From positions 1-49,455 of the forward strand of contig JAKAUU010000015.1 in NCBI GenBank assembly GCA_021817505.1: DNA of 49,455 bases, read 5' to 3'. Positions 5,082-42,305 of the stretch are shown one piece after another. Positions within the stretch are counted from its first letter, which is position 1. Every line of letters begins with the position of its first letter. The position numbers and the translations under genes were made by a program. The notes beneath the pieces are model-generated. The model was not told where the DNA came from. It searched no databases and saw only the letters and a program-made list of their open reading frames with translations. The stretch is from Microcaldota archaeon. GTDB lineage: Archaea; Micrarchaeota; Micrarchaeia; Micrarchaeales; CABMGC01.

Positions 5082-5749
5082 TATTATGTGTAAGATGTGA
5101 TAAGATGGTTTTGTCCCAAATTGAAACGGAACTCTCGACAGCGCTGTTCTTCATTCTGAGCTTTTCGCTTGCATACATGCTGACGACAAAATATACACAG
5201 ACCAAGCAAGGGCGTTTCCTCTTCTGGGCTCTTGGAATGTGGGCGTTTTTCATCGGAGACGTTCTTGAATTTGTATTTGCAACAGGCATCTACAGCGTCT
5301 TTCTTGCGGATATCTACCTCTTTGCGATAGCGATACTGCCCGGACTCCTGGCCATAGGCTCGATGCAGTACGTGAAGTCAGGTCTTGTTCGCCGGGGTTA
5401 TTATATATTCAACATGCTCGCGGCGGTCCTGCTGCTGTACTATCTTGCTACCGAGAATGTTGGAAACATGATGGTCAGTTATGTGGTTGCAGGCATGCCG
5501 CCTATGGACGTGATCAACGCATCCACAATCATCACCGTGCCAGCCACGATAGTGATAGTGGTCGCAGCTCTTCTCTCGTACAGGCGCAAGAAGGACATAT
5601 GGCTTCTGAGCATAGTGGTCGGGATACTCGGGTTTGCAATCGCGGGCAGCCTTTATGCATTGAACGTGGCACCGCTCTTGCTGTACTATGCAGAGTTTGT
5701 AGGGCTCATCTTCCTGTGGGCAGGGTTTTACAAGTCAACCTACAGATGA
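5078..5749 (+). CDS. Polytopic membrane protein of unknown function, coupled to cytochrome b
   Basis: 223 aa; ATGA-type overlap with the cytochrome b stop; repeated hydrophobic segments. Confidence 0.7.
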   Translation: MILCVRCDKMVLSQIETELSTALFFILSFSLAYMLTTKYTQTKQGRFLFWALGMWAFFIGDVLEFVFATGIYSVFLADIYLFAIAILPGLLAIGSMQYVKSGLVRRGYYIFNMLAAVLLLYYLATENVGNMMVSYVVAGMPPMDVINASTIITVPATIVIVVAALLSYRRKKDIWLLSIVVGILGFAIAGSLYALNVAPLLLYYAEFVGLIFLWAGFYKSTYR

Positions 5750-5854: not shown

Positions 5855-6742
5855 ATGACCACGGGGGTTTATGCAGACAGGGTTACAAAATTGTTCAGGA
5901 AGACGGTGGCTTTGGACAAGACCAGTCTTTCCATAGACAAGGGCATGAACATAGTCATAGGCCCTAACGGAGCAGGGAAGAGCACGCTGCTGAGATGCAT
6001 CGGGGGATTATACAAACCGGATTCAGGAAAGGTGAGGATCTTCGGCAGTGATCCGTATTATGATGATGATGCCAGGGGCAGGGTCTCCCTTCTCTCCGAT
6101 AACTATGCACTGTATGACAAGCTCTCTGTAATGAAGAACCTGCTCTTCTTCGGCAAGCTCTATGGGAACAGCAATGCTGAAACTGTTGAGATATCAAGAA
6201 CATTTCTCAAGAAGCTTGATGCCTACCAGTACATAGACAAGAAGGCCGGAGAACTTAGCAGGGGTACGAAGCAGAAGATAGCCATCTGCAGGGCGCTGCT
6301 TGGAGACCCCGGCGTCTTCCTGCTTGACGAGCCTACCGCTTTCCTTGATGCAGCCTCTGCCGAGAAGGTTCACCTTATGCTTGAGGAATTTGCCTCAAAC
6401 GGCAAGATAGTGATATATGCCACACAGAGGCTTAACGAGGCTGCTAGGTTCAACGCAAATCTCTTCATAATCAAGAGAGGAAGGATATCGAAGACGCTCA
6501 AACATAGCGATCTTTACGGCAGCATACTGAGAGATGCCAAGATCAACATAAAACTTGCGGATCCTGTGAATGCATCTATTGCGAATAAGGTCCCACATTT
6601 TGAAGAAGCACTGGGTTCTAACATAAGGATAAAGGTCAGGAATTACAAGGACATAAACGATTCGGTAAGATACCTTATTGACAAAGGAGCGTATATCATC
6701 AGCATAGATTATACCGAACCTCTTATAGAGGACATGTTGTGA
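5855..6742 (+). CDS. ABC transporter ATP-binding protein
   Basis: Walker A GPNGAGKST; signature LSRGTKQKIAICRALLGDPGVFLLDEPT. Confidence 0.95.
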   Translation: MTTGVYADRVTKLFRKTVALDKTSLSIDKGMNIVIGPNGAGKSTLLRCIGGLYKPDSGKVRIFGSDPYYDDDARGRVSLLSDNYALYDKLSVMKNLLFFGKLYGNSNAETVEISRTFLKKLDAYQYIDKKAGELSRGTKQKIAICRALLGDPGVFLLDEPTAFLDAASAEKVHLMLEEFASNGKIVIYATQRLNEAARFNANLFIIKRGRISKTLKHSDLYGSILRDAKINIKLADPVNASIANKVPHFEEALGSNIRIKVRNYKDINDSVRYLIDKGAYIISIDYTEPLIEDML

Positions 6743-7526: not shown

Positions 7527-8261
7527 TTATCTTCGTGTTCCAAACCAGTCTATGAGCAGCGCTATGAACTCCTCCTGCCACTCGGGATTTGAGAACTGGT
7601 GGTCTGCGCCTTTGATTACTACGTGCTTGAGGGATTCCGGTTTTGCCGTCTTTATTATCAATTCGATTATCCTGTGAGGGATCACCTGGTCGTGCTCCGC
7701 CGTTATGAGCAGTATCCTGTTTCTGAATGCGGATATTGAATTCAGTGCAATATTATTGCGCGGACCTTCTCCTTCTTTTGCAAGGCGCATCGATTGCATC
7801 GAATTCTTTGCCTTGCTGCTGTATTCATCAGTGTATATTGCAGGTACACGGAGCACAATTGACCCTATCTTCCTTTTTGATGCGAGTACAGATGCTAAGT
7901 ACCCACCGTAACTAGTGCCCACCACGCTTATTTTGTCTTTGTCCACATTTTCCTGTGAAGCAAGGAAGTCATACGCTGCCACTGTAGCGCTAATGTTTTC
8001 ATTTAATGTAACTGTTTCCAGGTTTCCTGTGCTGTTTCCATGTCCAAGAAGGTCGAATGTCAGACAAATGTAGCCAAGCTTTACAAGAGGCTCTGCCCTT
8101 TTTGCGTATCCTGATTCATTGCTTGACCATCCGTGTATGAACAGCACTGCCGGGCATTTTCCAGTTGCGTTTTCAGGAGTGAATACAGTACCGCTTACAG
8201 TGCCGTCCCCTACTGCAAAACTTATCTTCTTCGTTGGCATTTTACCATCGCTTTTACGCAT
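7527..8261 (-). CDS. Alpha/beta hydrolase
   Basis: LFIHGWSSNESGY, GHGNSTG, VVGTSYGGYLAS nucleophile elbow, GADHQFSNPEW. Confidence 0.9.
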   Translation of the reverse strand: MRKSDGKMPTKKISFAVGDGTVSGTVFTPENATGKCPAVLFIHGWSSNESGYAKRAEPLVKLGYICLTFDLLGHGNSTGNLETVTLNENISATVAAYDFLASQENVDKDKISVVGTSYGGYLASVLASKRKIGSIVLRVPAIYTDEYSSKAKNSMQSMRLAKEGEGPRNNIALNSISAFRNRILLITAEHDQVIPHRIIELIIKTAKPESLKHVVIKGADHQFSNPEWQEEFIALLIDWFGTRR

Positions 8262-8288: not shown

Positions 8289-8624
8289 TTAATTCTCTCT
8301 CTTATGTCTTGCGAGAAGATTTATCATTGCGGAACATGCCCTTGCACTGTCCCAGCTGTTTAGTGCACGAAGATTGGCCACCCTGTTGCTCATCTCCAAG
8401 CTGCCTGCCATGGCCCTGGCCTTTTCCTCAGTACTTTGTAGCAGCGTAGCAAGCTTTCTGCCATGCCTCTCTGCCATTATGAAATCGTCTATAGCTTCCG
8501 ATGCCTTGCCTTCCACCAGCGCATTGACTCCTTCCCTGTCATATGTCTCGAATGCTATCCTGTGCAGTTCGGTAAATTTCTTGCTACTGTATAAGGTAGT
8601 GTGTCCCAAACTAATCACTTCCAA
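8289..8624 (-). CDS. Hypothetical protein (helical)
   Basis: 111-aa ORF; no recognised family. Confidence 0.5.
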   Translation of the reverse strand: MEVISLGHTTLYSSKKFTELHRIAFETYDREGVNALVEGKASEAIDDFIMAERHGRKLATLLQSTEEKARAMAGSLEMSNRVANLRALNSWDSARACSAMINLLARHKREN

Positions 8625-8715: not shown

Positions 8716-8756
8716 TGGGCCCGCGGAGAGTCGGACTCCAGTTGCTACCGTGTGAA
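8716..8756 (-). repeat. Partial tRNA-Val(CAC) copy (anticodon loop to 3' end), distal attachment-like repeat
   Basis: TGGGCCCGCGGAGAGTCGGACTCCAGTTGCTACCGTGTGAA matches 9601..9641 with 4 mismatches, same orientation; no 5' half present. Confidence 0.85.
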
Positions 8757-8784
8757 TTGGGCTGTCTATCTGGAGCTTTTATTA

Positions 8785-9585
8785 TTAATCAAGAATGTCT
8801 GATTTTGATTTGTAAGTAAGCATCGATTTTATGTTTTGGGCTTTTATATTCTTTTTTAATTCTTTTTCTATGAACATAAGCGATTCACTAGCTAATCTTA
8901 ATGAAGATGTATAGACTTTCGCAGTGTCGGTTGTGCCAACTAATGCAAAACATATAGGATAATCTATGGCAAAGTGTATGGGTTTCTTTTTTGCTGCGGA
9001 TAGTTGATCCCAAAGTATGTTTTCGCTTACGATACGCATGTTATTTGCAATTATTATGGGATTCTGTGAAGCTTCTGCTATCATATATGCTGCATATCTT
9101 ATCAAACGCGTATCATTTGCAATCTTTCCATTTCTAACCTTGCCTGCATATTCCAATAGATTTCTACAGGAATGCTCCAACATACTCTGTATATCTTCAC
9201 TACTGGCGTGTATTGTTCTAATTTTATCTAAAATTCTTTTGACGTTCCCATTCTTGTCAAAAAGTATTAGGTTACTCTTAGCGCTTCTGTCATATTGCAC
9301 ATCCAAACCTTTTGGGGTACTATATTTATCTATTGCCATAAACCATATGTCGACCTGAATCTTATCATCGAAATAGAAAAATTTCTTAAGCTTAGATTTT
9401 GGCTTCGTTAATGCAATAATATCAATGTCACTATATGGACCTTGGTCTCCCCTAGCTACACTGCCGTTAACTATTATACCTAAAACATTAGGATCTTTTT
9501 TCAGAATATTCTCTCTTGCATGATTTAGGGCTTTATTAAAACGTTTTCTTAGCGATTCCCTATCTAATCTCATATTTTTATTCAT
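8785..9585 (-). CDS. Nucleotidyltransferase-domain protein (pol beta-like)
   Basis: 266 aa; GIIVNGSVARGDQGPYSDIDIIALTK matches GSx(10)DxD; starts about 15 nt downstream of tRNA-Val on the same strand. Confidence 0.85.
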   Translation of the reverse strand: MNKNMRLDRESLRKRFNKALNHARENILKKDPNVLGIIVNGSVARGDQGPYSDIDIIALTKPKSKLKKFFYFDDKIQVDIWFMAIDKYSTPKGLDVQYDRSAKSNLILFDKNGNVKRILDKIRTIHASSEDIQSMLEHSCRNLLEYAGKVRNGKIANDTRLIRYAAYMIAEASQNPIIIANNMRIVSENILWDQLSAAKKKPIHFAIDYPICFALVGTTDTAKVYTSSLRLASESLMFIEKELKKNIKAQNIKSMLTYKSKSDILD

Positions 9586-9600
9586 CGTATCCCGATTCAG

Positions 9601-9671
9601 TGGGTCCGCGGAGAGTCGGACTCCGGTCTCTACCGTGTGAAGGTAGCGTCTTACCGTTGGACTACGAACCC
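9601..9671 (-). tRNA. tRNA-Val(CAC)
   Basis: Acceptor GGGTTCG/CGGACCC, anticodon arm CTACC-TTCACAC-GGTAG, T-arm CGGAG-TCCGACT-CTCCG. Confidence 0.93.
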
Positions 9672-9844
9672 ATATCCTTATGTCATCCTGACGATAGTAA
9701 GCTATTTAAACCTAATCATATAATAAAATAGCGCTGTCTGTGGTTTCTTCTACAGATAGTTGTGAAAATTCCTAATGGGAATTAGATGTAGGCTTGAGCA
9801 ATGCAAAGGAAGCTCGCGATACAATTGCAAAATAATTAAGTAAT

Positions 9845-34607: not shown

Positions 34608-34713
34608 CTGATTATATTCTGCTGTATTTCATTTATATAAGTATTGTAGAGGAGAGCTTCTGTTCGTCATATAACAGAGCACGCCGAAAATTCGTACCCT
34701 TCTTGAGCAGAAG

Positions 34714-34798
34714 TGCAGGGAGAGAGATTTGAACTCTCGAACCCCTACGGGAACAGGCCCTGAACCTGTCGCATTTGACCAGGCTTTGCTATCCCTGC
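34714..34798 (-). tRNA. tRNA-Leu(CAG)
   Basis: GCAGGGA/TCCCTGC acceptor; ACAGG-TTCAGGG-CCTGT anticodon arm; class II variable arm; T-arm GAGAGTTCAAATCTCTC. Confidence 0.92.
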
Positions 34799-42131: not shown

Positions 42132-42201
42132 CTTATCACGCTTGCCAGTAGAATCCCGTGATATAAATAGCTTTGCAGGACAGGCGCTGCTTTGGATAAT
42201 G

Positions 42202-42305
42202 TGCAGGGGGTGAGATTCGAACTCACGAAGGCGCTAGGCCACAGGATCTTAAGTCCTGCGCGTTTTTCTGTGGCTCTTTGCCAAACCAGACTCTGCAACC
42301 CCTGC
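42202..42305 (-). tRNA. tRNA-Leu(TAA) with about 19 extra nt in the D-arm/26-region (candidate non-canonical intron)
   Basis: GCAGGGG/CCCCTGC acceptor; CAGGA-CTTAAGA-TCCTG; T-arm GTGAGTTCGAATCTCAC; 104 nt versus 85 nt for tRNA-Leu(CAG) in this window. Confidence 0.82.

Follow-up and report, generated by a model that had tools for sequence, protein, structure and literature searches.

An 885-bp unit directly downstream of the tRNA-Val(CAC) gene in this Micrarchaeota genome is most likely an old integrase-mediated insertion from which the integrase is gone and in which a single cargo gene, a pol-beta-type nucleotidyltransferase (NTase), has been kept. At a probability of roughly 0.8, the unit is a non-autonomous and probably decayed integrated element that entered at tRNA-Val by the action of an integrase whose gene was either deleted afterwards or supplied in trans. 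This reading draws on the geometry of the repeat that bounds the unit, on empty sites with conserved flanks in two sister genomes, and on the patchy distribution and the G+C content of the NTase gene. It is further supported by the uniform placement of tRNA-Val fragments in relatives, by integrase-bearing elements at the same tRNA and by the wide occurrence of the corresponding integrase family, as well as by an arm-like motif after the tRNA, a tRNA fragment beside the one close NTase homolog, and strong constraint on the NTase itself. All coordinates refer to the window, the whole stretch of 49,455 nucleotides that was analysed.

The intact tRNA-Val(CAC) gene occupies 9601-9671 on the minus strand (lower bound 9600 or 9601; ARAGORN; Rfam RF00005, 57.3 bits). 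Its 3' half, at 9601-9641, forms the attL side of the duplication and recurs on the same strand at 8716-8756, the attR side, with 37 of 41 positions identical and a spacing of 885 bp; the displaced copy was recovered by repeat search, by BLAST within the window (E = 8e-12) and by direct reading. No tRNA-Val 5' half lies beside 8716-8756, and the direct repeat with four mismatches that had been described from the sequence alone is thereby borne out. The first nucleotides of the repeat are those of the 7-nt anticodon loop (TTCACAC), unchanged between the two copies, and its last is the discriminator base, while the four mismatches fall in the variable loop, the first position of the T-stem and the acceptor stem. 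Four differences in 41 positions are more than expected of a recent or active element, and this counts against the preferred explanation. The inserted segment proper, missing at the empty sites of sister genomes, spans 8757-9600, and together with one repeat copy makes up the 885 bp. Neither tRNA-Val copy is followed by CCA, and a retro-copy of a mature tRNA was rejected because the fragment stops at the discriminator base without it; a split tRNA was likewise rejected, since 844 nt away there is a complete tRNA-Val gene with an identical anticodon.

The tRNA-Val gene is identical at 71 of 71 positions in four of the five same-genus sisters (G001, G002, G003 and G005). At one base the displaced copy carries G, as do most other tRNA-Val genes, where the genus of the window has A; an origin of the copy in another genus was set aside, its support being that single base. 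Among 35 tRNA genes of this genome whose surroundings were scanned, tRNA-Val(CAC) was the only one with an anticodon-loop-to-3'-end copy nearby. Elsewhere in the window, 42201-42283 on the minus strand gives a weak tRNA-like match below the Rfam cut-off (20.7 bits), and over 29 nt it is 86% identical to the 3' part of the tRNA-Leu(CAG) gene (34713-34798); it is a degenerate tRNA, an intron-bearing tRNA or a relic. On another contig of the same genome (C4), two 19-nt T-arm-like matches to tRNA-Ser(GCT) lie downstream of that gene on the same strand (L102:9423-9441 and 7687-7705), which could be short att relics or chance.

The NTase gene (266 aa, minus strand, 8785-9585; Pfam NTP_transf_2, 2.4e-8) is the only plausible gene between the repeat copies. 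Its ATG lies 15 nt after the 3' end of the tRNA and its stop codon 28 nt from the displaced fragment. Thus the single ORF on the tRNA strand, about 15 nt past the tRNA, that the sequence-only reading had reported is confirmed, as is the lack of an integrase, of which neither a gene nor a relic was found in the unit. The active-site motif GSxxRGxxxxxSDIDI is intact, and the protein resembles kanamycin nucleotidyltransferase over most of its length (PDB 1KNY; E 2.9e-6, residues 16-218), a likeness that comprises the nucleotidyltransferase domain as well as the active-site motif. Matches to the ANT(4') models of NCBIfam are weak, at 33 bits against a curated cut-off of 350, and therefore place the protein far below the threshold for that family of aminoglycoside nucleotidyltransferases. 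It also scores below the cut-off for the MntA-HepT type VII and Hailong (HalB) two-gene systems, and as the single gene in the unit it has no partner gene beside it, as those systems do. The enzyme would probably transfer a nucleotide to a small molecule or to another target, and a small toxic molecule is our best guess by analogy with kanamycin nucleotidyltransferase. Structure prediction from an alignment of two sequences was poor (pLDDT 39).

The NTase gene is foreign in composition and patchy in distribution. With a G+C content of 0.333 it falls below both the window as a whole (0.467) and its neighbours (0.46-0.52). It is absent from the five same-genus sisters, and among the 301 genomes of the phylum a close homolog, at high similarity, occurs in only one other (G124), sited elsewhere, so that descent as a vertical core gene was rejected and the phylum-wide synteny of NTase and tRNA-Val that would speak against an insertion was not seen. 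A scan of viral contigs found no NTase. Between the two homologs dN is about 0.27 and dS is saturated, giving a dN/dS below about 0.1, which indicates that the gene has been kept for its function under purifying selection.

The other homolog sits beside a tRNA fragment of its own. In G124, which belongs to another family, the NTase is 64% identical to that of the window, and a tRNA-Glu(TTC) 3' fragment (positions 14-75) starts 29 nt past its stop codon. The intact tRNA-Glu(TTC) of that genome is on a separate contig and is followed by the same arm-like motif as described below. The G124 locus as a whole (L128:7824-10617) reads tRNA-Glu(CTC), directly followed by a divergent seryl-tRNA synthetase, the NTase homolog and the tRNA-Glu(TTC) 3' fragment; the synthetase is a second one, 39% identical to the other one in that genome.

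An empty tRNA-Val site, which the sequence-only reading had proposed to look for in sister genomes, was found in two. The far flank of the unit is a host ORF of 111 aa (8289-8624, minus strand; tblastn; no Pfam match), and in G003 and G001 this ORF follows tRNA-Val after about 134 and 98 nt, respectively, with nothing in between. The genes flanking tRNA-Val are conserved among the same-genus sisters. A different insertion of about 1.1 kb occupies the same spot in G002 (L037:203-1430), with the remnant of an integrase start, a HicA/HicB-like pair and a C39-peptidase-like ORF, the latter two assignments being our own reading; the HicB-like protein has no Pfam match and no distal tRNA fragment was found for this cargo, and the locus was taken only to show that this position has received another insert. 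In G005 (L040:9016-9116), two conserved element ends are fused directly to one another after tRNA-Val and the 111-aa ORF is missing, an arrangement that resembles the scar left when an integrase-bearing element collapsed. Together with the distribution and G+C content of the NTase gene, the occupancy of this site among the sisters indicates that the spot is a hotspot and that the NTase unit is a lineage-specific insertion.

Comparable units bounded by tRNA-Val fragments are found in relatives. Across 37 tRNA-Val genes from the window and the fetched loci, the ten secondary matches all concerned the 3' half and lay downstream on the same strand, and no match involved the 5' half, an upstream position or the opposite strand; because some of these loci were picked for having a fragment or an integrase, the direction of the matches is informative and their frequency is not. 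At least four genomes in addition to the window carry fragment-bounded units without an integrase: a 5.9-kb unit with a mercury(II) reductase (above the curated cut-off), an ArsR regulator and a thioredoxin-like protein (G045), a 3.9-kb unit with AbiEi/AbiEii (G030), a 3.85-kb unit with AIPR/AbiU, a DNA methylase and an HNH nuclease (G091), and a 1.7-kb unit with the same methylase and HNH pair (G068). A search at maximum sensitivity with the integrase family profile found no integrase or relic in any of these four or in the window unit. Three further tRNA-Val units with distal fragments do carry an integrase (G049, G033 and G054), which in G033 is accompanied by a DNA methylase and a Tsp45I-type restriction enzyme. 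In another genome, G088 (L047), two same-strand tRNA-Val-like fragments lie 928 bp apart (5535-5571 and 6463-6499), and are possible tandem relics of two insertions; one scan gave no tRNA there and an intron-tolerant scan gave tRNA-Val(TAC).

The enzymes that accompany such elements belong to one family of tyrosine recombinases. Members of 271-297 aa lie just after tRNA-Val and on the same strand in G106, G049, G085, G047 and others, sometimes with a TTG start 2 nt past the discriminator base. A profile built from four members, with up to eight matches listed per genome, found the family in 105 of the 301 genomes of the phylum. Of 30 loci checked, about 25 have the integrase directly downstream of a tRNA and on its strand, and the tRNAs concerned include those for Val, Glu, Pro, Ser, Gln, Lys, Ala and Arg, among others; a same-genus relative, G004, has one at tRNA-Glu(TTC). 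At three loci (L109:1503, L068 and L067) the integrase frames start 2-3 nt past the 3' end of the tRNA or run through it, an arrangement that suggests a leaderless integrase mRNA generated by processing of the tRNA 3' end. The sequence-only reading had looked to a tyrosine integrase encoded elsewhere in the host. Such enzymes do occur at tRNA-Val and other tRNAs across the order, but none was detected in the window's own genome, which is 84% complete and gave no match to PF00589 or to the family profile; a scan of viral contigs found none either. The lack of an integrase or relic in the unit and of the family in this 84%-complete genome also counts against the preferred explanation, and is the reason that the unit is classed as a non-autonomous or decayed derivative rather than as an autonomous member of the group.

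Short motifs that resemble integrase arm sites provide a further connection. Directly after tRNA-Val, about a dozen genomes drawn from two families share a 42-nt sequence, which in part serves as integrase start codons. In G068, G091 and G148 there is another conserved stretch ahead of the distal tRNA fragment, and G148 has, in order, the end of an integrase, two small ORFs, the conserved non-coding stretch and the tRNA-Val fragment. The sequence AAAATACGACGACAAAA or close variants of it occur in both stretches, and hence would flank the tRNA core on both sides, as expected of integrase arm sites. These two stretches are the element ends that are fused in G005. In the window, the similar ATACGATGA (9582-9590, minus strand) overlaps the NTase start codon and lies 11-19 nt after the tRNA, nearly the same distance at which AAAATACGACGACAAAA follows tRNA-Val in the integrase-bearing relatives. 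The arm motif of the integrase family, TACGAYGACAAAA, lies about 10-13 nt after the tRNA, and the window has ATACGATGAATAAAA in its place, a match in part only. As a putative arm site, ATACGATGA would link the window to the integrase family; the motif is short, at 9 nt, and was spotted before it was tested.

From these observations a course of events can be proposed. A small circular DNA carrying a tRNA-Val 3' half would have recombined with the host tRNA-Val through a tyrosine integrase, probably one of the tRNA-adjacent family of this order, regenerating a whole tRNA-Val at one edge and leaving a displaced 3' half at the other. The integrase gene may then have been deleted, which is the more likely course, or the enzyme may have been supplied in trans; the recombination step, the identity of the integrase and the substrate of the cargo enzyme are all inferred here. 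The NTase has since been retained under purifying selection. Its transcript probably originates at the tRNA-Val promoter and would be freed by processing of the tRNA 3' end. This co-transcription is suggested by the 15-nt gap between the two genes and by the TATA-box-like TTTAAATA (9703-9710, minus strand; direct reading), which lies 32-39 nt upstream of the tRNA, is the sole candidate promoter seen ahead of the tRNA and NTase genes, and also occurs in G002.

It is possible, if rather unlikely, that the unit is not a remnant but a live cassette, lacking an integrase, addressed to the tRNA and moved by integrases that reside on other elements in the population. The window unit and the four others without an integrase make at least five such tRNA-Val cassettes, and compatible integrases are numerous in the order. 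Furthermore, the methylase-HNH DNA of G091 and G068, two genomes of different genera, is 88.5% identical where the flanks are about 65% identical, with identity stopping exactly where the tRNA fragment ends. The two tRNA-Val copies of G091 are identical over 33 nt, and the unchanged anticodon-loop overlap in the window would also suit a mobile cassette. However, a complete-looking element in G155 has, from a tRNA-Pro to a tRNA-Pro fragment, an integrase, HNH, methylase and more ORFs, so the same restriction-modification pair occurs with and without an integrase and independent losses of the integrase would explain the pattern. The four differences between the window repeats and the apparent scar in G005, which indicates that integrase-bearing elements do decay, also argue against a live cassette.

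A segmental duplication or homologous recombination, by which linear foreign DNA with a tRNA-Val 3' fragment and the NTase gene was joined in by end-joining or recombination without an integrase, is improbable. Homology of 41 bp and the lack of an integrase in the genome are in keeping with it, but the bounds of the segment are the anticodon loop and the functional end of the tRNA, and random recombination predicts neither these nor the pattern in relatives, in which all ten fragments are same-strand 3' halves downstream and integrase-bearing versions occupy the same tRNA. An assembly artefact or chimera, conceivable for a draft genome of 34 contigs, can be dismissed with near certainty, since both flanks are syntenic with single contigs of the sisters, the fragment, having diverged, does not form an exact repeat, and the same architecture is present in independent genomes.

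The old insertion favoured here belongs to a known type of event, and its form is new and extremely reduced. Islands targeted to tRNA genes and the rule of the displaced fragment are well known (PMC4383910, PMC8371274), and the window shares with such Islander-type islands an intact tRNA, a same-strand 3' fragment at the far end, empty sites and foreign cargo. Archaeal elements integrated in tRNA genes, of about 9-23 kb, also leave tRNA fragments (PMC9897764), whereas the unit in the window has 885 bp, one gene and no integrase. The cryptic integrated elements of Thaumarchaeota, recognised by their integrase, range from 2.6 to 98 kb, lie in the 3' ends of tRNA genes and carry restriction-modification or other accessory cargo without hallmark genes of viruses or plasmids (PMC6563490); compared to these multigene, integrase-bearing elements (Krupovic et al. 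2019), the window unit is smaller, holds one gene, lacks an integrase and belongs to Micrarchaeota. Closest are the integrase elements of Micrarchaeota themselves (G049, G033, G148 and G155), with which it has in common the tRNA-Val target (in several of them), one to few cargo genes, a tRNA fragment at the far end and, for its putative arm motif, a nearly equal distance from the tRNA, the difference being that the integrase follows directly after the tRNA where the window has the NTase. An island of 36.5 kb with an XerD-type integrase has been described near the 23S gene of Mancarchaeum (PMC5498576). A review of archaeal recombinases makes no mention of DPANN, no literature was found that joins Micrarchaeota, integrases, tRNA genes and mobile genetic elements, and no description of the tRNA-anchored set of elements in Micrarchaeota was found in the literature searched; the group is widespread in the order and apparently undescribed.

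Micrarchaeota are ultra-small archaea in which gene gain is poorly known. Small elements anchored at tRNA genes are common across the order, with cargo that consists mostly of defence or resistance genes, among them restriction-modification, abortive-infection, mercury-resistance and similar genes, and the unit in the window, the smallest and most stripped-down member among those found, marks a lower limit of one gene and two att scars. The locus offers a test of whether cassettes of a single gene move in trans, and of whether the promoter of a tRNA drives expression of cargo placed immediately behind it. As a more speculative proposal, and one that we regard as doubtful, Micrarchaeota may hold a pool of tRNA-addressed cassettes without integrases, single genes or operons for defence and for metal and antibiotic-like resistance, that are recombined in trans by the tRNA-adjacent integrases found throughout the lineage. 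If true, these reduced, host-dependent archaea would possess a counterpart, based on tRNA genes, of the gene cassettes of integrons.
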